DNA of 10,363 bases from an uncultured Lachnospiraceae bacterium (lineage in GTDB: Bacteria; Bacillota; Clostridia; Lachnospirales; Lachnospiraceae): assembly GCA_937915975.1 (NCBI GenBank), contig CALGGL010000269.1:1-10363 (forward strand). The letters are read 5' to 3'. This document shows, piece by piece, positions 1 through 10,363 of this stretch. The translations under genes were made by a program, and so were the position numbers. The notes beneath the pieces were generated by a model. It searched no databases. It saw only the letters and a list, made by a program, of their open reading frames with translations, and was not told the DNA's origin. How positions within the stretch are numbered: position 1 is the stretch's first letter; each line of letters starts with the position of its first letter.

Positions 1-2943
1 GGATATAAGACTGACACCAGGAGTGGAATGTCTGGTCTTAGCTATCCAAGGATAAACCTTTTTTCCCGGAAGATGTCCGCCCTCACCAGGCTTGGCACCC
101 TGTGCCATCTTAATCTGTATCTCTCTTGCACTTACAAGATATTTGCTGGTTACGCCAAATCTTCCGCTTGCAACCTGCTTTATGGCAGAGCTTCTGTCAT
201 GTGAAGTTCCTGCCGAAGCAAGCCTCTCATCACTCTCTCCGCCCTCGCCACTGTTAGACTTACCATGAAGGTGATTCATGGCAACCGCAAGTGCCTCATG
301 AGCCTCCTCGGATATGGAACCGTAGGACATGGCTCCTGTCTTAAATCTTTTTACGATCTCATCCTCCGACTCTACCTCATCAATAGATATGCCGCTTTCA
401 GGATAATTAAAATCTATAAGACTTCTTAAATAGCCTGTTTTCTCACTGTCGACCATACTTGTGTACTGCTTGAACTTATCGTAATTACCTTCTCTGGTTG
501 CAGTCTGAAGCATATGTATGGTCTGTGGATTATATCTGTGTGCCTCACCCTGACTTCTCATCTTGTGTCTTCCTACAGATGAAAGTGTAAGGTCACTGTT
601 TAAGCCAAGAGGATCAAAGGCTTTAGAGTGCTCTTTATCCACTCTCTTAGCTATATCATCAAGGGTAATTCCTCCTACTCTGCTGACGGTTCCGGTAAAG
701 TACTCGTCTATAACCTCTTTGGATATACCTATTGCCTCAAATATCTTACTGCCCTGATAGGACTGGATGGTTGAAATACCCATCTTGGATGCTATCTTAA
801 CTATGCCATGCAAAACCGCATCATCATAATCACTTACCGCTGCATAATAATCCTTATCAAGTCTTCCCTCATCTATAAGCTCCTGTATGGAAGAATGTGC
901 AAGATACGGATTGACAGCACACGCACCAAAGCCAAGTAAGGTAGCAAAATGATGCACCTGACGAGGCTCTCCGGATTCAAGAATAAGTGACATAGCTGTA
1001 CATTTCTTGGTCTGAACGAGGTATTTATGAACTGCTGCCACAGCAAGAAGTGAAGGTATGGCAACATGATTTTCATCAACTCCCCTGTCTGAGAGAATCA
1101 GTATATTTGCACCCTCTTTGTATGCCTTATCAACCTCAACAAAAAGATGATCTATTACTCTTTTCATAGGTGTGCTCTTGTAATAAAGAGTTGAAACCTT
1201 GGCAACCTTAAAGCCCGGCTTATTCATCTTCTCAATCTTAAGAAGGTCAAGGTCTGTAAGTATAGGATTGTGTATCTTTAACACCTGACAATTCTCAGGT
1301 TTTTCCTCAAGAAGATTACCGTTTTTACCCACATAAACCGTAGTTGAGGTAACAATCTTTTCTCTCTCCGCATCTATAGGCGGATTGGTAACCTGTGCAA
1401 AAAGCTGTTTGAAATAATAAAACAGCGGCTGGTACTCCTCGGAAAGTACCGCAATAGGGGTATCAACACCCATGGCACCTATTGCCTCGGCACCGTTAAG
1501 TGCCATATTTCTTATGCCCTCCTGATAATCTTCATATGAATATCCAAATGCCTTTTGAAGTCTCTGCCTTTCCTCATTTGTGTAGGATATAACCTTTTCA
1601 TTTGGAATCTTGATGTCGTGAAGCTCTAAAAGACTGCTGTCAAGCCACTCTCCGTAAGGCTCCTTTTTAGCATATTTTTCCTTTATCTCCTCATCGGAAA
1701 GAATAACCTTATTAATCGTGTCTACCAAAAGCATCTTGCCCGGATGAAGCCTCTCCTTCTTTAAAATGTGTCGCTCATCAAGTGAAAGGACTCCAATCTC
1801 GGATGAAAGGATAAGTCTTCCGTCATCCATAACATAATATCTTGATGGTCTAAGGCCGTTCCTGTCAAGGATAGCACCCATCACATCTCCGTCTGAAAAA
1901 AGGATTGATGCAGGTCCGTCCCAAGGCTCAAGCATGGTTGCATAATACTGGTAAAAATCTCTTTCCTCCTGCGTAAGGGTATCATTGTGTGCCCAAGGCT
2001 CAGGTATCATAATCATAGCTGCAAGCGGCAGATCCATACCACTCATAACAAGGAATTCAAGGGTATTGTCAAGCATGGCAGAGTCAGAACCACTCTGTGA
2101 TATAACCGGAAGAACCTTGGTCATATCATCTGCCGAAAAATGATCCGAATGCATGGTTTCTTCTCTTGCAAGCATCTTATCAGCATTACCCTTAATAGTA
2201 TTAATCTCTCCGTTATGTACGATAAATCTGTTAGGATGAGCCCTCTCCCAGCTTGGATTGGTATTGGTTGAAAATCTCGAGTGAACCATGGCTATAGCTG
2301 AATCATAATCCTCATCCTGTAAATCCTTGAAAAATGTCCTAAGCTGTCCTACTAAAAACATACCCTTATAAACTATAGTTCTGCATGAAAGCGACGGAAC
2401 ATAGGTATTGTCATTACTCTGTTCAAATTCTCTTCTTATAACATAAAGCTTTCTGTCGAATTCAAGGTCTGTCAAAGGTGTATCCGGTCTTTTAATAAAT
2501 GCCTGATATATCGAAGGCATACACTCTCTTGCCCTGCTTCCTAATACTTCAGGTACAATATCCACCTCTCTCCAGCCTAAAAATTCAAGCTTATCCTTTG
2601 CCACAATTATCTCAAACATCTTCTTGGCCTGACTTCTTTGCAGCTCATTTTGAGGGAAGAAAAACATACCTACCGCATATTCTCTTTCGTTTCCGATTTC
2701 TATGTTTATTTCCTTACAAATCTTCTTAAAGAACTTATGTGATATCTGTGTAAGGATACCTACACCGTCACCGGTTTTTCCCTCTGCATCCTTACCGGCA
2801 CGATGCTCAAGGTTTTCCACTATGCTTAAAGCATCCTTTACAACATCGTGTGACTTTACTCCGTTTATATTGACGATTGCGCCTATACCGCAGTTGTCAT
2901 GCTCAAATTCCTGATTATATAATCCGTTTTTTTGTATGTTCAT
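1..2943 (-). CDS. gltB: Glutamate synthase large subunit (partial, C-terminus beyond window)
   Basis: The large subunit of glutamate synthase converts glutamine plus 2-oxoglutarate into two glutamates in the cytoplasm. I translated the minus strand from the ATG at 2943 and found one open frame of 981 codons running off the window at position 1; family members are about 1500 residues, so about one third is missing. An AAAGGTAGG ribosome binding site precedes the ATG. Cys18 in the context DNCGIG is the expected N-terminal nucleophile of the class II glutaminase domain, implying removal of a 17-residue propeptide. HRAG and KTGDGVG follow near residues 47-63. The central domain covers roughly residues 450-760. 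The FMN/synthase domain starts near residue 780, with SYGSISEEAHEAL and NSGEGGE near residues 870-900 and GAKPGEGGHLPG near 960. The cysteines of the 3Fe-4S cluster would lie outside the window. I saw no frameshift. The partner gltD is not visible. Confidence 0.96.
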   Translation of the reverse strand, partial: MNIQKNGLYNQEFEHDNCGIGAIVNINGVKSHDVVKDALSIVENLEHRAGKDAEGKTGDGVGILTQISHKFFKKICKEINIEIGNEREYAVGMFFFPQNELQRSQAKKMFEIIVAKDKLEFLGWREVDIVPEVLGSRARECMPSIYQAFIKRPDTPLTDLEFDRKLYVIRREFEQSNDNTYVPSLSCRTIVYKGMFLVGQLRTFFKDLQDEDYDSAIAMVHSRFSTNTNPSWERAHPNRFIVHNGEINTIKGNADKMLAREETMHSDHFSADDMTKVLPVISQSGSDSAMLDNTLEFLVMSGMDLPLAAMIMIPEPWAHNDTLTQEERDFYQYYATMLEPWDGPASILFSDGDVMGAILDRNGLRPSRYYVMDDGRLILSSEIGVLSLDERHILKKERLHPGKMLLVDTINKVILSDEEIKEKYAKKEPYGEWLDSSLLELHDIKIPNEKVISYTNEERQRLQKAFGYSYEDYQEGIRNMALNGAEAIGAMGVDTPIAVLSEEYQPLFYYFKQLFAQVTNPPIDAEREKIVTSTTVYVGKNGNLLEEKPENCQVLKIHNPILTDLDLLKIEKMNKPGFKVAKVSTLYYKSTPMKRVIDHLFVEVDKAYKEGANILILSDRGVDENHVAIPSLLAVAAVHKYLVQTKKCTAMSLILESGEPRQVHHFATLLGFGACAVNPYLAHSSIQELIDEGRLDKDYYAAVSDYDDAVLHGIVKIASKMGISTIQSYQGSKIFEAIGISKEVIDEYFTGTVSRVGGITLDDIAKRVDKEHSKAFDPLGLNSDLTLSSVGRHKMRSQGEAHRYNPQTIHMLQTATREGNYDKFKQYTSMVDSEKTGYLRSLIDFNYPESGISIDEVESEDEIVKRFKTGAMSYGSISEEAHEALAVAMNHLHGKSNSGEGGESDERLASAGTSHDRSSAIKQVASGRFGVTSKYLVSAREIQIKMAQGAKPGEGGHLPGKKVYPWIAKTRHSTPGVSLIS

Positions 2944-2966
2944 GTGTTTTACCTACCTTTCTGGTT
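2944..2966 (-). promoter_or_regulatory. gltB ribosome binding site and 5' leader end
   Basis: On the minus strand an AAAGGTAGG purine block sits about 8 nt before the gltB ATG. It decides the start, because Cys18 of the glutaminase domain is then preceded by a propeptide of ordinary length. Confidence 0.7.
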
Positions 2967-3160
2967 TGGCTTACGAGCTTGGATTAAATCCATCGCAGGC
3001 ACGCTCTCGCTACTCTCACACGTAGCGGTTCTAAGCTCTTTGTATGCCAATTATAATCAACTTCTTACTTTGTAAAGTTGATTATAATCGTCATCCAATT
3101 CGCTAAGTACCGACGTGTTCAAAGTACCTGCTTATGGATTTATTCAAGCTTCGTAAGCCA
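2967..3160. repeat. 194-bp nested imperfect palindrome between pyrG and gltB
   Basis: The outer arms TGGCTTACGA (2967-2976) and TCGTAAGCCA (3151-3160) are perfect reverse complements. Pairing continues inward through GGATTAAATCCAT opposite ATGGATTTATTC, then GCAGGCAC opposite GTACCTGC, then ACACGT opposite ACGTGT, with small gaps. At the centre lies a perfect 14-bp inverted repeat, 3050-3063 with 3075-3088, around an 11-nt loop. The element fills most of the 305-bp gap between pyrG and gltB and would form the gltB leader or an upstream regulatory region. It could be a MITE-like or extragenic palindromic repeat, or a large structured leader. I see no transposase and no clear target-site duplication. 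Confidence 0.75.
3050..3088 (-). promoter_or_regulatory. Candidate gltB promoter/operator at apex of the palindrome
   Basis: The perfect 14-bp inverted repeat contains the self-complementary ATTATAAT in each arm, so each arm carries a TATAAT on the minus strand (3055-3050 and 3086-3081). For the gltB-proximal copy a TTTACA lies 15 nt upstream (3076-3071), shorter than the ideal 17. The symmetry could also be a dimeric repressor or activator site. It does not match the GlnR/TnrA or GltC boxes I know. Low confidence as a promoter; the inverted repeat itself is certain. Confidence 0.35.
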
Positions 3161-3227
3161 TTTAAATATTGTTTAAAGATAAATAGTAATATTACTCAAC
3201 AAATTTTATATATCCTTCATATATCAA

Positions 3228-3250
3228 AAACTGCATATATAATTCAGTTT
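3228..3250 (-). terminator. Weak hairpin at the pyrG stop codon
   Basis: On the minus strand AAACTG pairs with CAGTTT around an 11-nt AT-rich loop and is followed by a short T run. The stem is only 6 bp and overlaps the pyrG stop, so this is at best a weak terminator. Confidence 0.25.
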
Positions 3251-4847
3251 ATGTTCGATGTGTTAATGCTGCTTCTATCAATCCATAAAACAGTGGGTGT
3301 GGATCATCCGGTCGTGATTTGAACTCGGGATGTGCCTGAGTTGCCACAAAGTAAGGATGATCTTTTAGCTCTATCATTTCTACTATCCTGCCGTCAGGTG
3401 ATAGTCCTGAAAGTATCATTCCATTTTCGATAAGCTTTTCTCTGTAGTCATTATTTACTTCATATCTATGTCTGTGTCTTTCCGATATATCAAGCTTACC
3501 GTACAGCTTCGCTGCCCTTGTTCCTTCCTTTAATACACAAGGATATGCGCCAAGTCTTAAGGTTCCTCCGATATTTACTACTCCGTTTTGCTCCGGCATA
3601 AGGGCTATAACCGGATTTTTGGTATCAGGCTCAAGCTCAATGCTTGCCGCATCCTTTATGCCTATTACATTTCTTGCAAATTCTATAATCGCAAGCTGCA
3701 TTCCGAGACATATGCCAAGGTATGGAATATTTTTTTCTCTTGCATACTTTATGGCAAGTATCTTTCCTTCCGTTCCTCTCGGGCCAAAGCCTCCCGGAAC
3801 AAGTATTCCGTCCGTATCATGAAGAAATTCTTCTATATTTTCACTTGTAAGCTTTTCAGCATCTATCCATCTTATATTTACTTCAGCGTGATTGGCTATG
3901 CCTGCGTGCTTTAATGCTTCTGCCACACTCAAATATGCATCATGAAGTGCAACATATTTTCCAACCAAGGATATAGTAACCTTATTGTTCGGATGATTTA
4001 ATCTTGAAACCATATCCTTCCACTTATCAAGATCAGGCTCCGGACAAGGAAGCTTAAGACATTCACAGACAGCCTGTGCAAGCTTTTCCTTCTCTAACAT
4101 AAGCGGAACCTCGTAAAGCGAAGGTGCATCAAGATTCTGTAAAACATGCTCTTTCTTTACATTACAGAATAACGCAATCTTTTCACGCATGTTGTCATCT
4201 ATCGGATAATCCGAACGACACACCAGAATGTCCGGCCATATACCCATACTCTGAAGTGCCTTGACACTCGCCTGTGTCGGCTTGGTCTTCATTTCCCCCG
4301 AAGCCTTAAGATATGGGATAAGCGTAACCTGAATCATAATCGCATTTTCTCTTCCCACCTCAGCCTGAAACTGCCTTATGGCTTCAAGGAATGGCTGGCT
4401 CTCTATATCTCCCACCGTGCCGCCGACCTCAATAATCGAGATTGTATAATCATCATTATTATCCTTATAAATGTGGTCCTTTATCTCATTGGTAATATGC
4501 GGAATAACCTGAACCGTACCTCCGCCGTATTCTCCGCGTCTTTCCTTATTTAAGACCGACCAGTATATTTTTCCTGTTGTAATGTTGGAATTATGATTGA
4601 GACTTTCATTTATGAATCTTTCGTAATGTCCTAAGTCAAGGTCCGTCTCCGTTCCGTCATCCGTTACGAAAACCTCACCATGCTGTATAGGATTCATAGT
4701 TCCGGGATCAACATTGATGTAAGGGTCAAACTTCTGCATTGTAACCCTGTATCCTCTTGCTTTGAGGAGTCTTCCGAGCGAGGCAGCGGTGATACCTTTA
4801 CCCAGTCCCGATACAACTCCACCTGTTACAAATACATACTTAACCAT
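3249..4847 (-). CDS. pyrG: CTP synthase
   Basis: PyrG makes CTP from UTP using ATP and ammonia released from glutamine, the last step of de novo pyrimidine nucleotide synthesis, in the cytoplasm. The 532 residues match the usual full length. The N-terminal synthetase domain (1 to about 270) begins [16 protein letters not shown], with the P-loop at 14-18 and [14 protein letters not shown] at 38-51. [12 protein letters not shown] is at 139-150. The C-terminal class I glutamine amidotransferase (about 290-532) has GGFGPRG at 352-358, the nucleophile Cys380 in GICLGMQ, and the catalytic pair His506/Glu508 in AHPEF. A GGGAGGG ribosome binding site lies 7 nt before the ATG. It is transcribed towards gltB. 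A promoter at 5008-4980 and an immediate leader terminator at 4965-4931 suggest control by attenuation. No anomalies in the protein. Confidence 0.98.
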
Positions 4848-4873
4848 CTTTGGTCCCTCCCTATTATTTATTC

Positions 4874-4922
4874 TTACGACATGCTACACCTCGCCTGTCG
4901 GCTCGGTGATACGACTTCGTAA
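4874..4922 (-). other. Long hairpin in the pyrG leader with tandem G-A mismatches
   Basis: Between the leader terminator and the pyrG ribosome binding site, TTACGA (4874-4879) pairs with TCGTAA (4917-4922). The tip pairs CACC with GGTG and GCC with GGC around a 4-nt loop (4887-4908). In the RNA read towards pyrG, the two tip helices are separated by GA opposite GA, a classic tandem sheared mismatch. The outer arm TTACGA/TCGTAA is also the core of the outer arms of the 2967-3160 palindrome, so this may be a short member of the same repeat family or part of the pyrG leader structure. Confidence 0.55.
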
Positions 4923-4965
4923 ATAAAAAAAAAGGCACTTCGAGTGTTAAACTCGAAGCGCCTTT
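4922..4965 (-). terminator. Intrinsic terminator/attenuator in the pyrG leader
   Basis: On the minus strand a 15-bp stem (4965-4951 with 4945-4931, one G-U pair) around a 5-nt loop is followed by a run of nine T before ATTTA. This is a strong rho-independent terminator. It lies only about 8 nt downstream of the predicted pyrG start site, so it sits inside the pyrG leader and also stops any readthrough from the HigBA operon. Confidence 0.9.
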
Positions 4966-4979
4966 GCTTCATCTCTAAT

Positions 4980-5008
4980 ATATTAATTGTTTGGTAAAAA
5001 AATGTCAA
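4980..5008 (-). promoter_or_regulatory. pyrG promoter
   Basis: On the minus strand TTGACA (5008-5003) and TAATAT (4985-4980) are separated by exactly 17 nt. Transcription should begin near 4974-4972. It lies after the HigA stop and before the leader terminator, so it is dedicated to pyrG. Confidence 0.8.
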
Positions 5009-5061
5009 GGGGAAATTTACTATTTACCCATTTGCTAAAAAATCACTATGAAATCTTTTTT

Positions 5062-5349
5062 CTATATTTTTTGTTTTGGAACAAACTCTATTTTTAAAAC
5101 CATACCCATCCCTTCAGCCAGGCGTTTAAGCAAATTAACAGAAGGATTTCTTGTACCATTCTCAAGCTTACTTATATCAGCCTGATTAATGCCGGTTCGT
5201 TCAGCGAGTTCCTTCTGTGTAATATTTTGAGAAGTTCTTGCCTCAACAATTGCTCTTATAACATCCATTTCCGGTTGAATAGCTTCATATTCTTTTGCAA
5301 ATTCAGGATCTTTCATATGACTTTCTTTATATTGTTTTAACGTTCTCAT
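5062..5349 (-). CDS. HigA-like antitoxin, Xre-family helix-turn-helix
   Basis: A 95-residue DNA-binding antitoxin that should neutralise the upstream toxin and repress the shared promoter. Residues 1-30 are charged and probably helical. Residues about 31-88 form a Cro/CI-type helix-turn-helix, with TQKELAERTGINQADISKLE marking the turn and recognition helix, followed by NPSVNLLKRLAEGMG and the terminal strand LKIEF. Its ATG overlaps the toxin stop by 4 nt (ATGA), so the two are translationally coupled; an AAGGATGG block inside the toxin gene serves as ribosome binding site. The toxin-first order is typical of HigBA rather than RelBE. The likely operator is the palindrome at 5724-5743. Confidence 0.88.
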   Translation of the reverse strand: MRTLKQYKESHMKDPEFAKEYEAIQPEMDVIRAIVEARTSQNITQKELAERTGINQADISKLENGTRNPSVNLLKRLAEGMGMVLKIEFVPKQKI

Positions 5350-5702
5350 TGTTTACCCATCCTTTCCTTAAAATCTGCTCTTCGTTCTTTTGCTAATTTT
5401 ATTTCTTCTTTCGGTGTTTTTTGCCTCTTTTTAACGAAACCATTTGTAAGTATTATCTTTCCCTCATAATAGAAAAAATATAGTATTCTCGTAATATTGT
5501 TTCCTGCCTGACACCGTATTTCAAATATTCCGTCATCAATAGATTTACTGTATGGTTCTCTTAGCTGATTACCCTTTTCTTCCAGCAATTCAAGTAAACC
5601 AATAATTTTAACTCTCATCTTTAAATCAAGCGAATTAATAAAATCTTCTACAGGGCAATCACCATTTTCTTTCTCATAAAAAATAACTTCAAACTTTGCC
5701 AT
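5346..5702 (-). CDS. HigB/Gp49-like toxin (RelE superfamily mRNA interferase)
   Basis: A 118-residue member of the phage-derived Gp49-like/HigB family, whose members cleave mRNA at the ribosome. Visible family marks are EPYSKSIDDGIFEIR (49-63), RILYFFYYEGKIILTNGF (72-89) and FVKKRQKTPKEEI (89-101), ending in a lysine/arginine-rich tail. The usual His before GF in many homologues is Asn87 here. I start at 5702: AAAGGAG (5714-5708) is correctly spaced for it. An in-frame ATG at 5741, 13 codons upstream, lies inside the operator, before the predicted transcription start, and has no binding site. It is the first gene of a two-gene operon with the antitoxin. It is AT-rich compared with pyrG. Confidence 0.9.
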   Translation of the reverse strand: MAKFEVIFYEKENGDCPVEDFINSLDLKMRVKIIGLLELLEEKGNQLREPYSKSIDDGIFEIRCQAGNNITRILYFFYYEGKIILTNGFVKKRQKTPKEEIKLAKERRADFKERMGKQ

Positions 5703-5720
5703 ACCTTCTCCTTTATAATA

Positions 5721-5749
5721 ATTATATGGCATATATGCCATATTGTCAA
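5721..5749 (-). promoter_or_regulatory. HigBA promoter with operator palindrome filling the spacer
   Basis: On the minus strand TTGACA (5749-5744) and TATAAT (5726-5721) are both perfect consensus hexamers, 17 nt apart. A perfect 20-bp palindrome, half-site ATATGGCATA, spans 5724-5743: it fills the whole spacer and touches the -10 box. A HigA dimer bound there would exclude RNA polymerase, which is the expected autoregulation. Transcription should start near 5714, giving a very short leader that begins almost at the AAAGGAG ribosome binding site. Confidence 0.88.
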
Positions 5750-6077
5750 CATGTATAATTCAAATATAATAAATTGTTTTTATATTTACGCAAGCAAAAA
5801 ATGCCATTATCATTAATATTGATTTGATATCTCTGCTCGGATATTCCATAACTATATTTAGCTTTGGGTTAAGGGTAGAAATTTATTTATCTGATAATAG
5901 AGATAAAAATAACCGCCCTACGCCTAAATAGTACGGTCATTTTTATTATCTTATAACTATTAAGTGCAACCATCTATCGGTAACACCTTTTCTAAAATAT
6001 ATCATTAAAGCCTCTTACTGTCAATGTTCATTATTATACCTTTTCAAAAGGGTACTCTTTTATTATGTCACAAAATT
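5750..6077. other. AT-rich intergenic stretch
   Basis: About 330 bases between the HigBA promoter and the stop of the small membrane protein. Apart from the hairpin at 5903-5946 I see no coding frame with a ribosome binding site, no tRNA and no clear promoter. A short TACCTTTTCAAAAGGGTA inverted repeat near 6039-6056 could be incidental. Confidence 0.5.
5903..5946. terminator. Terminator-like hairpin, possibly bidirectional
   Basis: ATAAAAATAACCG (5903-5915) pairs with CGGTCATTTTTAT (5934-5946) with one mismatch, around an 18-nt loop. Both strands have a T-rich stem edge and a T-rich flank. It lies downstream of the minus-strand gene at 6078-6398 and could end its transcript. The GC part of the stem is only 3-4 bp, so strength is doubtful. 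Confidence 0.45.
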
Positions 6078-6398
6078 TCAAATAGGTAAAAACGCCAAAA
6101 GCAACGAATATCCCAGACATAAAATCAGGTTTACAATTACAAAAGACTTTGTGTATTTTTCTTGGTATTTTGCTTCATCATCAATCTTTTCCTTTTGCCT
6201 TTTAGTCATTCTCCATGTCGCAGGAAATAATGCTGCCACAAAGAAAATAACAAACAACATAATACCAATAAAAATTAAAACACCTAACAGGCCTCCATCC
6301 ACATCACAGGATACAGCTTTATAAATACCTGCTGCAACGATTAATAAAAAAGAAATTATTTCAACAATTTTTTCCCATGTTTTAAATCTACCTGTCAA
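6078..6398 (-). CDS. Small three-helix membrane protein, function unknown
   Basis: I do not recognise this 106-residue protein. It has three hydrophobic segments, about residues 11-29, 36-58 and 85-104. A charged stretch (TKRQKEKIDDEAKYQEKYTK, 65-84) separates the second and third segments and is probably cytoplasmic. It starts with TTG: AGGAGGT lies 7 nt upstream, an excellent ribosome binding site, and no ATG fits that spacing. It follows the lipoprotein gene on the same strand with a gap of 100 bp, so co-transcription is possible but not shown. Base composition is AT-rich like the rest of the block. The general look is of small DUF-type membrane proteins common in Firmicutes genomes; no role can be assigned. 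Confidence 0.75.
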   Translation of the reverse strand: MTGRFKTWEKIVEIISFLLIVAAGIYKAVSCDVDGGLLGVLIFIGIMLFVIFFVAALFPATWRMTKRQKEKIDDEAKYQEKYTKSFVIVNLILCLGYSLLLAFLPI

Positions 6399-6468
6399 TT
6401 TCGTTACCTCCTATCATTCTCAATTTTTTGATTTTCTTATTGCTATACAGCAAAATACATACAAAATC

Positions 6469-6489
6469 CATATCAAAACATCTGATATG
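6469..6489 (-). terminator. Weak hairpin after the lipoprotein gene
   Basis: A perfect 7-bp stem, CATATCA with TGATATG, and a 7-nt loop lie just past the lipoprotein stop. On the minus strand it is followed by GATTTTG only, so termination would be weak and readthrough into the membrane protein gene is plausible. Confidence 0.3.
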
Positions 6490-6498
6490 ATACTCCTT

Positions 6499-7110
6499 TT
6501 ACAAATCATTTTTCCTACTATAATTATATACTGTACCTGCCTTAATTAAATTTAAATCGGATTCAGTGATTGTAAGGCGTATTCCGGTATCTGTTTTTTC
6601 TACGATACCATAAAAACTTGAATTATTATCCCAGAATCCCTGATTTATACTTAGTCCTTCTCCGTCAATATTGGCATTAGCCGTAGCTGATGCAGCATTA
6701 TATATAACAATTTCCAAATAATATCCACCTGTCTGAGGATTATCCTCAGATATTGTTATGGTACTTACCCCATCGTCATCAGAAACCCAATCACCTAAAA
6801 AAATTTCATCAGTTGCGCCATAATACTCAGCTGTACGAGGTACATCAGGCGCACCGGAAGGTTCTATCTCTTCCTCTGTATTATTATTCTCTGTTTCAAC
6901 TTTTTCCTCTGTTTTAATTTCTTCCTCAGTTTTCTCCTCTGTTTCTGTTATAGCCTCCGTCTCTGTTTTATCTTCCTCTACTCCTGTTGATGTGACTTCT
7001 GTTTCTTTCTCCGTGGTCTTACCTCTTTCAGAACCATTATCAGAATTACCACATCCTGACATCAAAGCAATACATAAAATTACAATAGCTACGAACTTAA
7101 ATCTTCTCAT
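6499..7110 (-). CDS. Predicted lipoprotein with Glu/Thr-rich linker
   Basis: A 203-residue exported lipoprotein of unknown role. From the chosen ATG at 7110 the N-terminus MRRFKFVAIVILCIALMSGC is a lipoprotein signal peptide with the lipid-anchored Cys at residue 20. I prefer this start to the in-frame ATG at 7125 because GGAGGAG lies between them, 6 nt before 7110. Residues about 21-90 are a low-complexity Glu/Thr/Lys tether expected to span the cell wall. The C-terminal part (about 90-203) looks like a small beta-rich globular domain (FLGDWVSDDDGVSTITISE, then GGYYLEIVIYNA, then GIRLTITESDL). GDW followed by alternating strands recalls small ligand-binding or lipocalin-like folds in Firmicutes lipoproteins, but this is only an impression. 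It is transcribed divergently from the plus-strand unit at 7353-8256. Confidence 0.8.
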   Translation of the reverse strand: MRRFKFVAIVILCIALMSGCGNSDNGSERGKTTEKETEVTSTGVEEDKTETEAITETEEKTEEEIKTEEKVETENNNTEEEIEPSGAPDVPRTAEYYGATDEIFLGDWVSDDDGVSTITISEDNPQTGGYYLEIVIYNAASATANANIDGEGLSINQGFWDNNSSFYGIVEKTDTGIRLTITESDLNLIKAGTVYNYSRKNDL

Positions 7111-7352
7111 TAAATGCTCCTCCATCTTTTAATTAACTCATATAACTTCCTACAATGAAATAAAATATTTTCCCTGAATTCATTTTATCACAGCTTCTAT
7201 ACATTAGATAATTAAAACAATATTTTGTTCGATTTTTTATAAAAAATATTTACATATTAAAACTATTATATTATACTTGTTTCAAAATAAATATTATTTT
7301 CATAATTCTATATATTTTTACAAAAGATTCCAATAAAAAGAATATTTAAATA
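7111..7352. other. AT-rich divergent intergenic region
   Basis: Very AT-rich stretch between the lipoprotein start and the promoter at 7353. It must hold the lipoprotein promoter, but I could not pick a convincing -35/-10 pair on the minus strand. No coding frame with a ribosome binding site and no long repeats are visible. Confidence 0.4.
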
Positions 7353-7381
7353 TTGACATAATATCAGCTCAATCATATAAT
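7353..7381 (+). promoter_or_regulatory. Perfect consensus promoter of the repeat RNA/PBECR-like unit
   Basis: TTGACA at 7353-7358 and TATAAT at 7376-7381 are both full consensus with a 17-nt spacer. Transcription should begin near 7388-7390, directly at the first hairpin of the repeat RNA and about 210 nt before the protein start. Such a strong promoter fits a highly expressed small RNA rather than a rare toxin. Confidence 0.88.
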
Positions 7382-7431
7382 ACTAATAGAAACAGCGTGC
7401 TGTTTCAGGTGGGCTAACACCCTAATCCGAT

Positions 7432-7482
7432 ATTCTTGCCGAACGAATGTGTCGGTAGTTGGCAGGCAACAGAAAAACCTGA
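7432..7482 (+). repeat. RNA repeat unit 1 (51 nt)
   Basis: Begins ATTCTTG, stem GCCGA (7438-7442) with TCGGT (7452-7456) around a 9-nt loop, then GTTG (7458-7461) able to pair with CAAC (7467-7470), then a single-stranded GAAAAA and CCTGA. The 3' end can pair with TTCAGGT at 7404-7410 of the leader. Confidence 0.8.
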
Positions 7483-7533
7483 ATTCTTGTTAGACAGATG
7501 GTGCTAACCGTTGGCGGACAACAGAAAAATTAG
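7483..7533 (+). repeat. RNA repeat unit 2 (51 nt)
   Basis: Directly follows unit 1 with no spacer. Begins ATTCTTG, stem GTTAG (7489-7493) with CTAAC (7504-7508) around a 10-nt loop, then GTTG/CAAC around GCGGA, then GAAAAA and TTAG. Four of five stem pairs differ from unit 1 on both sides while pairing is preserved. Confidence 0.8.
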
Positions 7534-7540
7534 TCATTTT

Positions 7541-7583
7541 AAGAGAGTTGATAATGCTAAAGTATTATTCAACTCTCTTTTTT
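7541..7583 (+). terminator. Intrinsic terminator between repeat RNA and protein gene
   Basis: AAGAGAGTTGA (7541-7551) pairs perfectly with TCAACTCTCTT (7569-7579); TAAT pairs with ATTA above a one-base bulge, and six T (7578-7583) follow. It lies 17 nt before the start codon of the protein gene, so the protein mRNA must come from readthrough. This fits the terminator that sets the antitoxin-to-toxin ratio in type III loci. Confidence 0.9.
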
Positions 7584-7599
7584 ATTTTAGGAGAAAGAA

Positions 7600-8256
7600 A
7601 TGAAATATACATCTAACACATATAAAAATGCTATTAATATAATTACAAATGCGGCTAAAGATTACAAGCAAATACTTAGTAATCAAAACTTTATTTTTAT
7701 TTTTAAAAACAGAAATGATAATTCAATAGATTATTTCGAAGCTGTATTTTTAGATCGTAATTTTCAACATTTAACAGGTATTGATTTTACCGATACAAAC
7801 GGAAAAATACTACATAAGTCATTATATTTTTATAAAAAATGTCTTAATGGCAAAATAAAAGAAAATGAAATAAGTTATAAAGCTGATGGAACAACAGAAC
7901 TAAAACTAAAAGCTCTTCCATTGATAATTAATTTTCTTAATTCATCAAAAATGACTGCAACTTATAATTCATTTAAACCCAAATTATCAGTTGACAGATT
8001 GGTTGGAACTACTAATTTTTGTATCGGTTTCACAAAAGATAAAGACTTTTTTGTTCCAAGTTCCTGTTTATTAGAAGATATACGTAATCTTTCTGATGTT
8101 ACACATCAAATTTTAGCAATTTATTCAAAATCATCCAATAATAAAAAAACAGTTTATAATAATTTGAGATACATAGCTAAAGGTATAACTATTGAAAAAT
8201 TAAATATGTCTGACGGCTTAAAAACTTTAATTGGATTATCAAAAAATAATATATAA
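7600..8256 (+). CDS. PBECR-like putative nuclease, candidate toxin of a type III-like TA system
   Basis: A 218-residue soluble protein with no signal peptide or membrane segment. AGGAG (7589-7593) is 6 nt before the ATG. An N-terminal helical part (1-30) is followed by strands FIFIFKN (31-37) and YFEAVFLD (45-52), then FQHLTGIDF (55-63). This F-x-H-L-T-G motif is, from memory, the hallmark of PBECR (phage Barnase-EndoU-Colicin-RelE-like) nuclease domains such as PBECR4. Downstream, FFVPSSCLLEDIRN (150-163), ILAIYSKS (171-178) and KKTVYNNLRYIAKG (182-195) also fit that family, with His57, Ser154/155 and Lys/Tyr near 175-186 as plausible active-site residues. It lies after the repeat RNA and its terminator, in the place of the toxin in type III systems. 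It is markedly more AT-rich than pyrG, gltB or amt, suggesting transfer. The family call is recall, not a search; the toxin role is inferred from context. Confidence 0.62.
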   Translation: MKYTSNTYKNAINIITNAAKDYKQILSNQNFIFIFKNRNDNSIDYFEAVFLDRNFQHLTGIDFTDTNGKILHKSLYFYKKCLNGKIKENEISYKADGTTELKLKALPLIINFLNSSKMTATYNSFKPKLSVDRLVGTTNFCIGFTKDKDFFVPSSCLLEDIRNLSDVTHQILAIYSKSSNNKKTVYNNLRYIAKGITIEKLNMSDGLKTLIGLSKNNI

Positions 8257-8263
8257 CGTTTTT

Positions 8264-8280
8264 ATCATGCGAAGCATGAT
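8264..8280. repeat. Short hairpin after the PBECR-like gene
   Basis: A perfect 7-bp stem, ATCATGC and GCATGAT, with a GAA triloop. The tip is GCGAAGC, known as an exceptionally stable mini-hairpin. There is no T run, so it is not a terminator by itself; it may protect the mRNA 3' end. Confidence 0.6.
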
Positions 8281-8372
8281 GTCGGTTGGATAGAGGTGTA
8301 TGTAAGCCCTTGTAGGTTTCAGATGCTTAGCGTAGCCTTTTGAAACAAGTGAGCACTTAGCTTATAGATAAC

Positions 8373-8399
8373 TTTTCTCCTTGCGTAGCAAGGAGAAAA
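8373..8399. repeat. Perfect 12-bp hairpin with GTA triloop
   Basis: TTTTCTCCTTGC and GCAAGGAGAAAA are exact reverse complements around GTA. The arm GCAAGGAG resembles a ribosome binding site, but no start codon follows at a useful distance. Confidence 0.8.
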
Positions 8400-8455
8400 A
8401 TAAATAATATCCCACATTTGCATTTATGCAAAACTGTGGGATATTATTTATTTTT
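8396..8455. terminator. Bidirectional intrinsic terminator
   Basis: A perfect 21-bp inverted repeat (8396-8416 with 8435-8455) whose upper part is CCCACA/TGTGGG and whose outer part is A-rich on one side and T-rich on the other. The loop itself folds as TTTGCAT/ATGCAAA. On both strands the stem ends in a T-rich run (plus: TTATTTATTTTTGTTTTTG), so it can end the PBECR-like transcript and the convergent amt transcript. Confidence 0.85.
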
Positions 8456-8594
8456 GTTTTTGATATGCATTAGTAGAAAACATATATATATGTTTAGTAC
8501 TCCTACTTGTTTCAATGAGTGCGAACGCGCTACGCGAGTATCTGAAGCCTACAAGGGCTTACATACACCATTCTATCCAACCGACCACAAAGCT

Positions 8595-10349
8595 TTAATT
8601 GTCACTCTGTAGTGCATCGTATCCGGTCTCGCCGGTTCTTACTTTAACTACATTTTCCACATCGTATACGAAGATCTTACCATCGCCGATATGGCCTGTG
8701 TAAAGCACCTTACGTGCAGTGTTGATAACATCCATAACAGGAACCTTTGAAACAACCATCTCTACCTGAACCTTTGGCAAAAGAGACATCTCCATCTTAA
8801 CTCCACGGTAGTATTCCGGTGCACCGTTCTGTACACCACAGCCAAGAACCTGAGTTACGGTCATACCTGTTACGCCGATATTGTTCATCGCTTTCTTTAA
8901 CTTCTCGAAACGTTCCTGTTTAAGGATAATTTCAACCTTGGTAATCTTATGCTCATTAGGTATATCAGAAGTCTTAACCGCTGCCGGTACCGCTTCATCC
9001 ATAGGAACGCTGCCTATCATCTCGTAGTCGTCAAGATCAGAGGTATCCGAGATACCGGTCGGAGCAAATTCAAAGCCTGCATAAGCGCTTGTAAGACCGT
9101 GCTCAGTAAGGTCAAGACCTTTGATTTCCTCCTCCTTGCTTGCACGAAGACCAAGAGTTGCTCTTATAATTGCAAATGTAATGTAAATCGTAACTGCAGT
9201 CCATGCAGCAGTACAAATCATACCTAAAAGCTGAATACCAAGCAGCTTAAATCCGCCGCCGTAGAAAAGACCTACCATCTCATTTCCTGCTGAATCGGCA
9301 ACCGAGTAACCCGGTACAGTATTTGTTGAGAAAAGACCAACTGCGATAGTACCCCAGATACCATTTAACATATGTACCGCTACCGCACCTACAGGATCGT
9401 CAACATGAAGCACATAATCAAGGAACCATACACCAAATACTACAAGCACGCCCGATACTGCACCGATTATGATAGAACCTAAAGCATCTACTGTATCACA
9501 AGGAGCTGTGATTGCAACAAGTCCGGCAAGGGAAGCATTAAGACACATTGAAACATCCGGCTTGCCATATCTGATCCAAGTGAAAATCATACATACTACT
9601 GTTGCTACTGCAGGTGCAATTGTAGTTGTTACAAATATATCACCAAGCTGTGGAACACTTGTTGCGGCTGCACCGTTAAAGCCGTACCAACCAAGCCAGA
9701 GGATAAATACACCTAAAGCACCGATTGGGATATTGTGTCCCGGAAATGCATTTACCTTTGTTACCTTACCATTTTCATCCTTCTCAAATTTACCGATTCT
9801 CGGACCAAGCATTGCAGCACCTACAAGTGCGCAGATACCACCTACCATATGAATACAGTTTGAACCGGCAAAATCATGGAAGCCTATCTTTGCTAACCAG
9901 CCGCCGCCCCAGGTCCAGTGAGCCTCAACCGGATATATAACAGCGGAAATAACTGCCGAATATACACAGTATGAAATAAATCTTGTTCTTTCAGCCATGG
10001 CACCTGAAACTATGGTTGCCGTAGTTGCACAGAACACTAAGTTAAATACAAATCCTGACCAGTCAAAGTCAGCATAGTTTGTGAAAATATCAAAGTTCGG
10101 AATACCAACCAAACCGCACAAAGCATCTTCACCTAAGAATAGTCCAAAACCAAGCAGGATAAATGTAACTGTTCCTATACAAAAATCCATCAGGTTCTTC
10201 ATAATGATGTTACCTGCATTCTTGGCTCTTGCAAAGCCTGTCTCGACCATTGCAAAGCCTGCCTGCATCCAGAATACTAGAGCAGCGCCTATAAGGAACC
10301 ACACTCCAAAAATTTCTGAATTAACAGTTTCTAAAATCTCCTGAGCCAT
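8595..10349 (-). CDS. amt: Ammonium transporter Amt fused to a C-terminal PII (GlnB/GlnK) domain
   Basis: A 584-residue inner-membrane ammonium channel with its own PII regulator attached. Residues 1 to about 402 are the Amt channel: WGGGWLAKIG (147-156), DFAGSNCIHMVGG (159-171) with the first pore His167, GWYGFNGAAA (220-229), and DDPVGAVAVHMLNG (317-330) with the second pore His326. A hydrophilic linker of about 65 residues leads to a complete PII domain (about 468-575). There Q507, K526 and GDGK (555-558) match the PII residues that bind ATP and 2-oxoglutarate (Q39, K58, 87-90 in E. coli). R515, matching R47 that plugs the AmtB pore, is kept, but the uridylylated Tyr51 is Met519. GGAGGA (10363-10358) precedes the ATG at 10349. 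Amt-PII fusions are known in some anaerobes. The fusion suggests a channel gated by its own energy and nitrogen sensor. Confidence 0.95.
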   Translation of the reverse strand: MAQEILETVNSEIFGVWFLIGAALVFWMQAGFAMVETGFARAKNAGNIIMKNLMDFCIGTVTFILLGFGLFLGEDALCGLVGIPNFDIFTNYADFDWSGFVFNLVFCATTATIVSGAMAERTRFISYCVYSAVISAVIYPVEAHWTWGGGWLAKIGFHDFAGSNCIHMVGGICALVGAAMLGPRIGKFEKDENGKVTKVNAFPGHNIPIGALGVFILWLGWYGFNGAAATSVPQLGDIFVTTTIAPAVATVVCMIFTWIRYGKPDVSMCLNASLAGLVAITAPCDTVDALGSIIIGAVSGVLVVFGVWFLDYVLHVDDPVGAVAVHMLNGIWGTIAVGLFSTNTVPGYSVADSAGNEMVGLFYGGGFKLLGIQLLGMICTAAWTAVTIYITFAIIRATLGLRASKEEEIKGLDLTEHGLTSAYAGFEFAPTGISDTSDLDDYEMIGSVPMDEAVPAAVKTSDIPNEHKITKVEIILKQERFEKLKKAMNNIGVTGMTVTQVLGCGVQNGAPEYYRGVKMEMSLLPKVQVEMVVSKVPVMDVINTARKVLYTGHIGDGKIFVYDVENVVKVRTGETGYDALQSDN

Positions 10350-10357
10350 AAATTTTT

Positions 10358-10363
10358 TCCTCC
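10358..10363 (-). promoter_or_regulatory. amt ribosome binding site
   Basis: GGAGGA on the minus strand, 8 nt before the ATG at 10349, fixes the start of the Amt-PII gene. The promoter lies beyond the window. Confidence 0.8.

Follow-up and report, generated by a model that had tools for sequence, protein, structure and literature searches.

A knotted two-repeat RNA upstream of a predicted PBECR4 RNase in a Lachnospiraceae genome: a proposed toxin family and RNA class of the type III kind, linked to the orphan drum RNA and to candidate phage decoys

A stretch of 10,363 nucleotides from an uncultured Lachnospiraceae bacterium (contig CALGGL010000269.1, positions 1 to 10,363; referred to as the window at its full length) carries two tandem RNA repeats, followed by an intrinsic terminator and by a gene whose product belongs to the PBECR4 family of predicted RNases. 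The question raised by this locus is whether the RNA is an antitoxin acting on the protein, as in type III toxin-antitoxin systems, or whether it controls the gene in cis, assists the protein as a cofactor, or lies next to it by chance. The best reading of the analysis would be a module of RNA antitoxin and RNase that resembles type III systems, accompanied by candidate decoys in phages comparable to pseudo-ToxI; the proposal that the knotted two-repeat RNA, placed with its terminator upstream of the predicted RNase, acts in trans as an antitoxin is given a probability of roughly three in four.

The window presents the order of a type III locus, namely a single promoter, RNA repeats, a terminator and a toxin open reading frame (ORF). 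A preliminary description of this DNA had proposed a perfect promoter, two adjacent 51-nt repeats, a terminator, an AGGAG motif and a 218-residue protein, and direct reading recovered each of these, the promoter with zero mismatches; only the repeat spacing had to be corrected, to 52 nt, since the loop hairpins start at 7458 and 7510. That description is extended here by the pairing role of the leader hairpin, by the pairing of the repeats with each other, by the link to the drum RNA and by the phage copies. The two-repeat RNA as a whole extends from 7408 to 7535, and the model representing this RNA type is named R1. The features of the locus are as follows, with the basis of each in brackets:

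7353 to 7381, plus strand: promoter, exact TTGACA-N17-TATAAT (direct reading; scripted survey of R1 loci)
7389 to 7406, plus strand: 5′ hairpin GAAACAGCGTGCTGTTTC, missing from some relatives (direct reading; homologous upstream DNA)
7408 to 7421, plus strand: leader hairpin P1, GGTG-GGCTAA-CACC, whose loop L0 pairs with strand S2 (alignment pairing tests)
7426 to 7477, plus strand: repeat 1, consisting of strand S0 (7426-7429), stem P2a (7439-7455) and hairpin 1 (7458-7470), the loop of which is CAGG with S1 as partner (pairing tests and reading)
7478 to 7529, plus strand: repeat 2, consisting of strand S1 (7478-7481), stem P2b (7489-7508) and hairpin 2 (7510-7522), the loop of which is CGGA with S0 as partner (pairing tests and reading)
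7530 to 7535, plus strand: 3′ strand S2, TTAGTC, partner of leader loop L0 (alignment pairing test)
7541 to 7583, plus strand: intrinsic terminator (stem and T run), with the RNA on one side and the ORF on the other (reading; scripted survey)
7589 to 7593, plus strand: ribosome-binding site AGGAG (direct reading)
7600 to 8256, plus strand: PBECR4-family protein of 218 amino acids with an ATG start, a predicted RNase toxin (ORF list, Pfam, alignment and structure model)

The signals on either side of the RNA recur among relatives, a promoter-like site (at most three mismatches, within the 110 nt before the RNA) being present in 42 of 47 R1 loci (shuffle mean 18.4) and a terminator being detected by script in 29 of the 47 (shuffle mean 8.6). 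The 205-nt stretch from 7381 to 7585, terminator included, folds at -60.5 kcal/mol (z -3.87), and none of 200 shuffled sequences folded as low. An Rfam scan of the window gave zero matches at gathering score; nine weak matches obtained at E ≤ 10 were rejected, all being below gathering score (the best, Yfr11, reached 26.1 bits versus 44). The two copies are too diverged for the repeat pair to be picked up by Tandem Repeats Finder.

The same RNA is present in the DNA upstream of homologous genes, which allowed its wiring to be assessed in an alignment (A2) of 23 two-repeat homologous RNAs, one-repeat, three-repeat and very diverged RNAs being excluded. Three sets of loop-strand pairings were tested, i.e. 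L0 with the 3′ strand S2, and the loop of either repeat with the opening bases of the other. Pairing was found in 99.1% of the 322 cells concerned, a value reached by none of 500 shuffles, and changes on both sides of a pair occurred in nine of the 14 loop-strand pairs, a number reached by two of 500 shuffles; the count of further pair types in these helices showed no excess over shuffles. When loops 1 and 2 were assigned each other's partners, pairing dropped to 82.6% and 69.6% at these positions, with zero both-side changes. The stems of P1 and of both loop hairpins are paired in 100% of cells, and P2a and P2b in 85.9% and 71.3%, respectively, in a region where the alignment is unsure. Compensatory changes are present in every counted helix across the 23 RNAs, so that the conserved repeat structure claimed previously is confirmed. 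Because these defined loop-strand pairings are conserved by compensatory changes, cross-wiring joins the two repeats in a single closed and knotted object. The tandem repeats do fold into pseudoknots, with a wiring unlike that of independent H-type units. The earlier type III-like reading of RNA and nuclease is supported, with the correction that the repeats are not independent ToxI-like units, since the loops pair across repeats. Among 48 RNAs, 43 contain two repeats, three contain one and two contain three; these counts were obtained by script instead of with model R2, which was built for repeat counting and mostly yields one match per RNA.

The protein encoded downstream was assigned by Pfam to PBECR4 (PF18813, E 6.2e-27, 95.6 bits versus a cut-off of 27), in line with the preliminary description and not to a non-nuclease family. 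PBECR4 alone was matched, and no ToxN-type family appeared at E ≤ 1 in this Pfam scan; on this basis the protein is placed, at sequence level, outside the homology of ToxN, CptN and TenpN. A BECR (barnase-EndoU-colicin-RelE) fold is predicted from the Pfam assignment, and the nuclease activity of PBECR4 is described as a prediction in the portion of the source consulted (PMC5512222). PBECR/BECR proteins are characterized by an active-site histidine and, in five of six PBECR families, a C-terminal Thr/Ser; H57, a candidate for this histidine, is invariant across 32 sequences and terminates a helix in the predicted structure. The structure model of the protein is confident and gave weak RelE matches in Foldseek and VIA, neither of which named a fold or family with confidence, together with good matches to two unnamed viral models; ToxN, colicin and barnase entries were not among the structure matches listed, which proves nothing. 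A sequence search of the PDB with profile A1 returned three matches (best E 0.24), none of them useful. In the literature collection searched, the word PBECR4 does not occur, and no PBECR4-type system is among the matches listed there for type III systems.

The linkage of RNA and protein was surveyed in 299 genomes of the family of the nearest genome, using R1 and the Rfam model of drum (RF02958). PBECR4 gave 72 matches in 56 genomes, drum 30 matches in 26 and R1 33 matches in 28, with a PBECR4 match located 14-198 nt downstream on the same strand for 23 of the 30 drum and 18 of the 33 R1 matches. Seen from the protein, R1 or drum lies upstream of 41 of the 72 PBECR4 matches: all 33 of the strongest (E ≤ 1.6e-21) have one of the two within 200 nt, as do eight of the 39 weaker matches, many of which are partial. 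The expectation that homologues would carry a conserved RNA upstream was thereby borne out for every one of the strongest matches, and the association extends beyond a single RNA, a second PBECR4 clade carrying drum. Beyond this family, PBECR4 was found in 22 of 341 genomes of a class sample and three of 348 of a phylum sample, and R1 was additionally searched in sets of 77 and 38 loci; the module occurs in Lachnospiraceae, Synergistales, one Erysipelothrix phage record and one Enterococcus phage record. A tblastn search with the window PBECR4 matched one phage record and no plasmid, and one with a drum-type PBECR4 matched 21 plasmid records (20 Enterococcus, one Streptococcus) and no phage.

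Several of these loci present particularities of their own. In L015 (3402-5429), approximately 1.4 kb of foreign-looking DNA lies between the RNA and a shortened PBECR4 gene, and in L045 (3230-3377) a PBECR4 gene already provided with an RNA is followed downstream by a second R1 RNA (77.5 bits) in opposite orientation. The Erysipelothrix phage phi1605 record (L050/L350) contains an R1-PBECR4 module with type III restriction-modification genes on one side and a site-specific recombinase on the other, as well as annotated macrolide-resistance genes. Diverged PBECR4 proteins with an HLCG motif follow R1-type RNA in L210, L211 and L343, the last from an unverified Enterococcus phage record with an adjoining host-like gene. 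A scan of 61 of 97 neighbouring ORFs from 13 loci gave a small number of matches to Cas, IetA, methylase, relaxase and resolvase families, and no enrichment of neighbour genes is claimed, because a control set was absent.

The drum RNA, reportedly first described by Weinberg et al. in 2017, was detected at gathering score in 17 of 17 PBECR4 loci without R1 and in none of three R1 loci in the same scan, in three of three fetched Enterococcus/Streptococcus plasmid loci, and in 10 of 20 further loci. As judged from their titles, the literature mentions of drum RNA or RF02958 concern RNA structure prediction or Rfam itself. Drum resembles the window RNA in lying upstream of another PBECR4 clade with a terminator-type layout (by eye), and differs from it in being a single unit of ≈112 nt instead of two repeats; there is no Rfam cross-match, drum failing to match the window RNA even at E ≤ 10. 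The two toxin clades are related, as indicated by a profile comparison (E 3.8e-5, probability 71%) and by their common Pfam family. In a tree of 68 toxins (37 labelled R1, 25 drum, and four class III and two class IV by our own reading, three short frames being excluded), the RNA class changes three times, which is the minimum possible, versus 25.8 times with shuffled labels; support is 100 for the drum clade and only 47 for R1 as one side of a branch. RNA class tracks toxin clade.

For 27 loci with neither R1 nor drum, the DNA preceding the gene was inspected by eye and without statistics: 12 fall into three other leader types, the remainder showing other leaders, being unclear or being fragments. 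One type (L083, L090, L091, L093, L096) has two hairpins with loops seemingly complementary to the strands after them and is a candidate third RNA class; the leaders of L090, L091 and L096 have no match in Rfam. Two further recurrent leader types precede weak PBECR4 matches, one in L081, L082, L084 and L057, the other in L105, L108, L109 and L111. A drum pattern searched in IMG/VR returned at least 120 stretches and was judged too loose.

A match between RNA class and protein clade is also what RNA-guided nucleases display, and a conserved structure suggests binding, so that the RNA could be a cofactor or guide which activates the PBECR4 nuclease within an effector complex, instead of an antidote to a toxin. 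This is considered quite unlikely: no guide-like variable segment stands out by eye in the 23 aligned RNAs, a phage would have no obvious gain from a cofactor alone, and the terminator would yield an excess of RNA, as reported for type III systems in the available part of PMC5086642.

Copies of the RNA are also present in fetched stretches that lack a toxin gene. Among bacterial R1 matches to which no listed PBECR4 match belongs, L145 has an intact RNA and terminator with no PBECR4 within the 3.1 kb fetched, and L151 and L164 retain decayed PBECR4 remains. A search of IMG/VR with a hairpin-plus-linker pattern yielded 43 contigs, of which 32 were matched by R1 at E ≤ 0.001 (rough E-values) and seven contain PBECR4 inside the fetched stretch (five by profile, one of these disrupted, L210 by Pfam and L211 by the same ORF). 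Some copies lie at tRNA genes: L188, a stretch containing 19 tRNA genes, has its RNA (141.9 bits) immediately next to a tRNA-Thr gene, the weaker match of L205 (35.7 bits, one hairpin) likewise abuts a tRNA-Thr gene, the RNA of L193 sits between tRNA-Ile and tRNA-Thr with a 3-nt gap and a 4-nt overlap, and those of L180, L201 and L217 are 120-270 nt from tRNA genes. No terminator was detected in any of seven tRNA-associated copies, and a good promoter match was found in L217 alone. According to a permissive script, all three loop-strand pairings form in five of five toxin-less phage copies in which the leader hairpin was recognized (L188, L193, L201, L217 and L212), loop 1 being different in each; L207, L200, L205 and phi3T show local pairings only, and L198 none. 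Pairings were also counted among the phage copies selected by the pattern (free pair kept in 20 of 33 with and six of eight without an R1 match), but this count was discarded, since the loop of a last repeat has its partner elsewhere and the pattern introduces bias.

Flanking DNA of an SPbeta-like Bacillus group is shared by 17 contigs (by eye), and two of these, compared with named phages, matched Bacillus phages only. Phi3T has two hairpins by a strict rule in its yonN-yonK gap, and SPbeta itself was rejected as a carrier: SPBc2, SIOphi and 000TH008 match neighbouring DNA only, and the parts of them that were read lack a hairpin of this kind. Two named Bacillus phages have long gaps (1.5-1.7 kb) free of annotation that share noncoding DNA, namely L341 (1773-3453, yonN-yonK of SPBc2) and L342 (1639-3106, SIOphi). 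In L212 (451-1251), from a viral contig of 42.5 kb, the two-repeat RNA and a terminator-like stretch precede a Fic/Doc gene, with no PBECR4 in the 3.2 kb fetched. In L188 (1529-6885), genes for a DUF2828/DUF7788 protein, an AAA_33 (kinase-like) protein, a metallophosphatase and a PTH2 peptidyl-tRNA hydrolase lie beside the 19 tRNA genes.

These copies bear on the possibility that the RNA is a cis-acting leader only, i.e. an attenuator or ligand-sensing element setting read-through into the PBECR4 gene. Its riboswitch-like position between the promoter and terminator of its own transcription unit would suit this role, and the AbiF RNA is described as reducing expression in cis as well (PMC12373285, in part). 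However, RNA copies exist without the gene, those tested at phage tRNA genes lack a detected terminator in seven of seven cases, and repeat number varies. Moreover, complementarity between the terminator arms and the RNA shows no excess in 20 loci (4.7 bases versus 5.2 in shuffles). Owing to this lack of excess complementarity and to the copies without a gene, a cis attenuator is less likely, and a cis-only role is considered unlikely overall.

The surroundings of the module in turn concern chance association. One flank carries a glutamate-synthase-like gene and pyrG, the other an ammonium transporter, which we take to be housekeeping genes. The accessory block comprises a pair of HTH and Gp49 genes, a small lipoprotein-like ORF and the RNA-PBECR4 module; it is extra relative to G001, the nearest genome, because the distance from pyrG to the transporter is 3.6 kb in the window versus approximately 1.1 kb in G001. 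The pair (5062-5741, minus strand) consists of an HTH antitoxin and a Gp49/RelE-like toxin by Pfam, with similar DNA elsewhere in G001. Directly after the PBECR4 gene, noncoding positions 8264-8544 recur in more than 15 places of G001 at 70-91% identity, in many cases close to where a contig ends; the stretch is bounded by inverted repeats, which are suggestive of a MITE-like element. Such an accessory insertion adjoining a dispersed repeat, together with the broken PBECR4 copies that occur in some other places, could mean that RNA and gene were brought together by chance or by a common mobile origin, with no joint function. The linkage of all 33 strongest matches, the tracking of toxin clade by RNA class and the spread of the module over Lachnospiraceae, Synergistales and the two phage records make this highly improbable.

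Compared with ToxIN, CptIN and TenpIN, the module has in common one promoter, a repeat RNA, an intrinsic terminator, a downstream (predicted) endoribonuclease and pseudoknotted RNA units, as far as these are set out in PMC5086642. It differs in that its toxin matches PBECR4 in Pfam and not a ToxN-type family, that its RNA usually has two repeats, and that these, instead of folding separately, are cross-wired and closed by the leader hairpin; judged by sequence, the module is outside these three families. AbiF-RCd22 has a type III-like layout, comprising a promoter, an RNA with two copies of the abiF motif (RF03085), a terminator and a HEPN RNase toxin, which the RNA binds and silences in trans according to the portion of PMC12373285 available; its protein and RNA families are unrelated by Pfam and Rfam, and no abiF RNA or AbiF/HEPN match was found in the window. 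AvcID, as partially covered in PMC10511110, also combines an RNA antitoxin with a non-ToxN toxin, and therefore indicates that type III toxins need not resemble ToxN; it differs in having a deoxycytidylate deaminase as toxin and, in that part, no predicted terminator between RNA and toxin. The pseudo-ToxI of phage PhiTE is likewise an antitoxin-like RNA carried by a phage without a toxin, for which suppression of ToxIN is reported in the excerpted text (PMC3475682), whereas suppression by the present copies is inferred and concerns other phages, some copies being directly at tRNA genes. The PBECR domains of phage polyvalent proteins belong to the same predicted RNase superfamily, with solo versions mentioned; the consulted part of PMC5512222 mentions no RNA partner and places their role in proteins delivered by phages and mobile elements.

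Considering that the pairing recurs in relatives and that phages carry the RNA without an adjacent toxin, it is likely that the RNA serves as antidote, which would make the phage copies decoys against a defence system, and the module likely works like a type III system. Most transcripts would end at the terminator and provide excess RNA, and read-through would provide the toxin, as in the type III layout set out in PMC5086642. Toxin molecules, perhaps two per RNA, would bind the cross-paired repeats and stay inactive. If the RNA were lost, as might happen once host transcription is shut down by a phage, the RNase would be freed and would stop growth or infection, and phages with a free RNA copy would keep the toxin silent; copies directly beside tRNA genes could be cut out by tRNA processing. 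A wider proposal, towards which we lean with less assurance, is that PBECR4 forms a superfamily of toxins caged by RNA, with four or more different structured RNA antitoxins, drum and the knotted two-repeat RNA among them, and that large phages, including tRNA-rich ones and the phi3T group of Bacillus, possess free-standing copies, some excised by tRNA processing, as anti-defence decoys.

If this is true, the type III-like systems are extended by one toxin family and by two or more RNA classes, and an interlocking in which either repeat finds its partner strand in the other would be an unusual design for an antitoxin RNA. The orphan drum RNA would acquire a testable function and a protein family known from prediction only would acquire a partner. 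Unannotated structured RNAs at phage tRNA genes would be explained as counter-defence, with phi3T of B. subtilis as a laboratory phage in which this may be tested.
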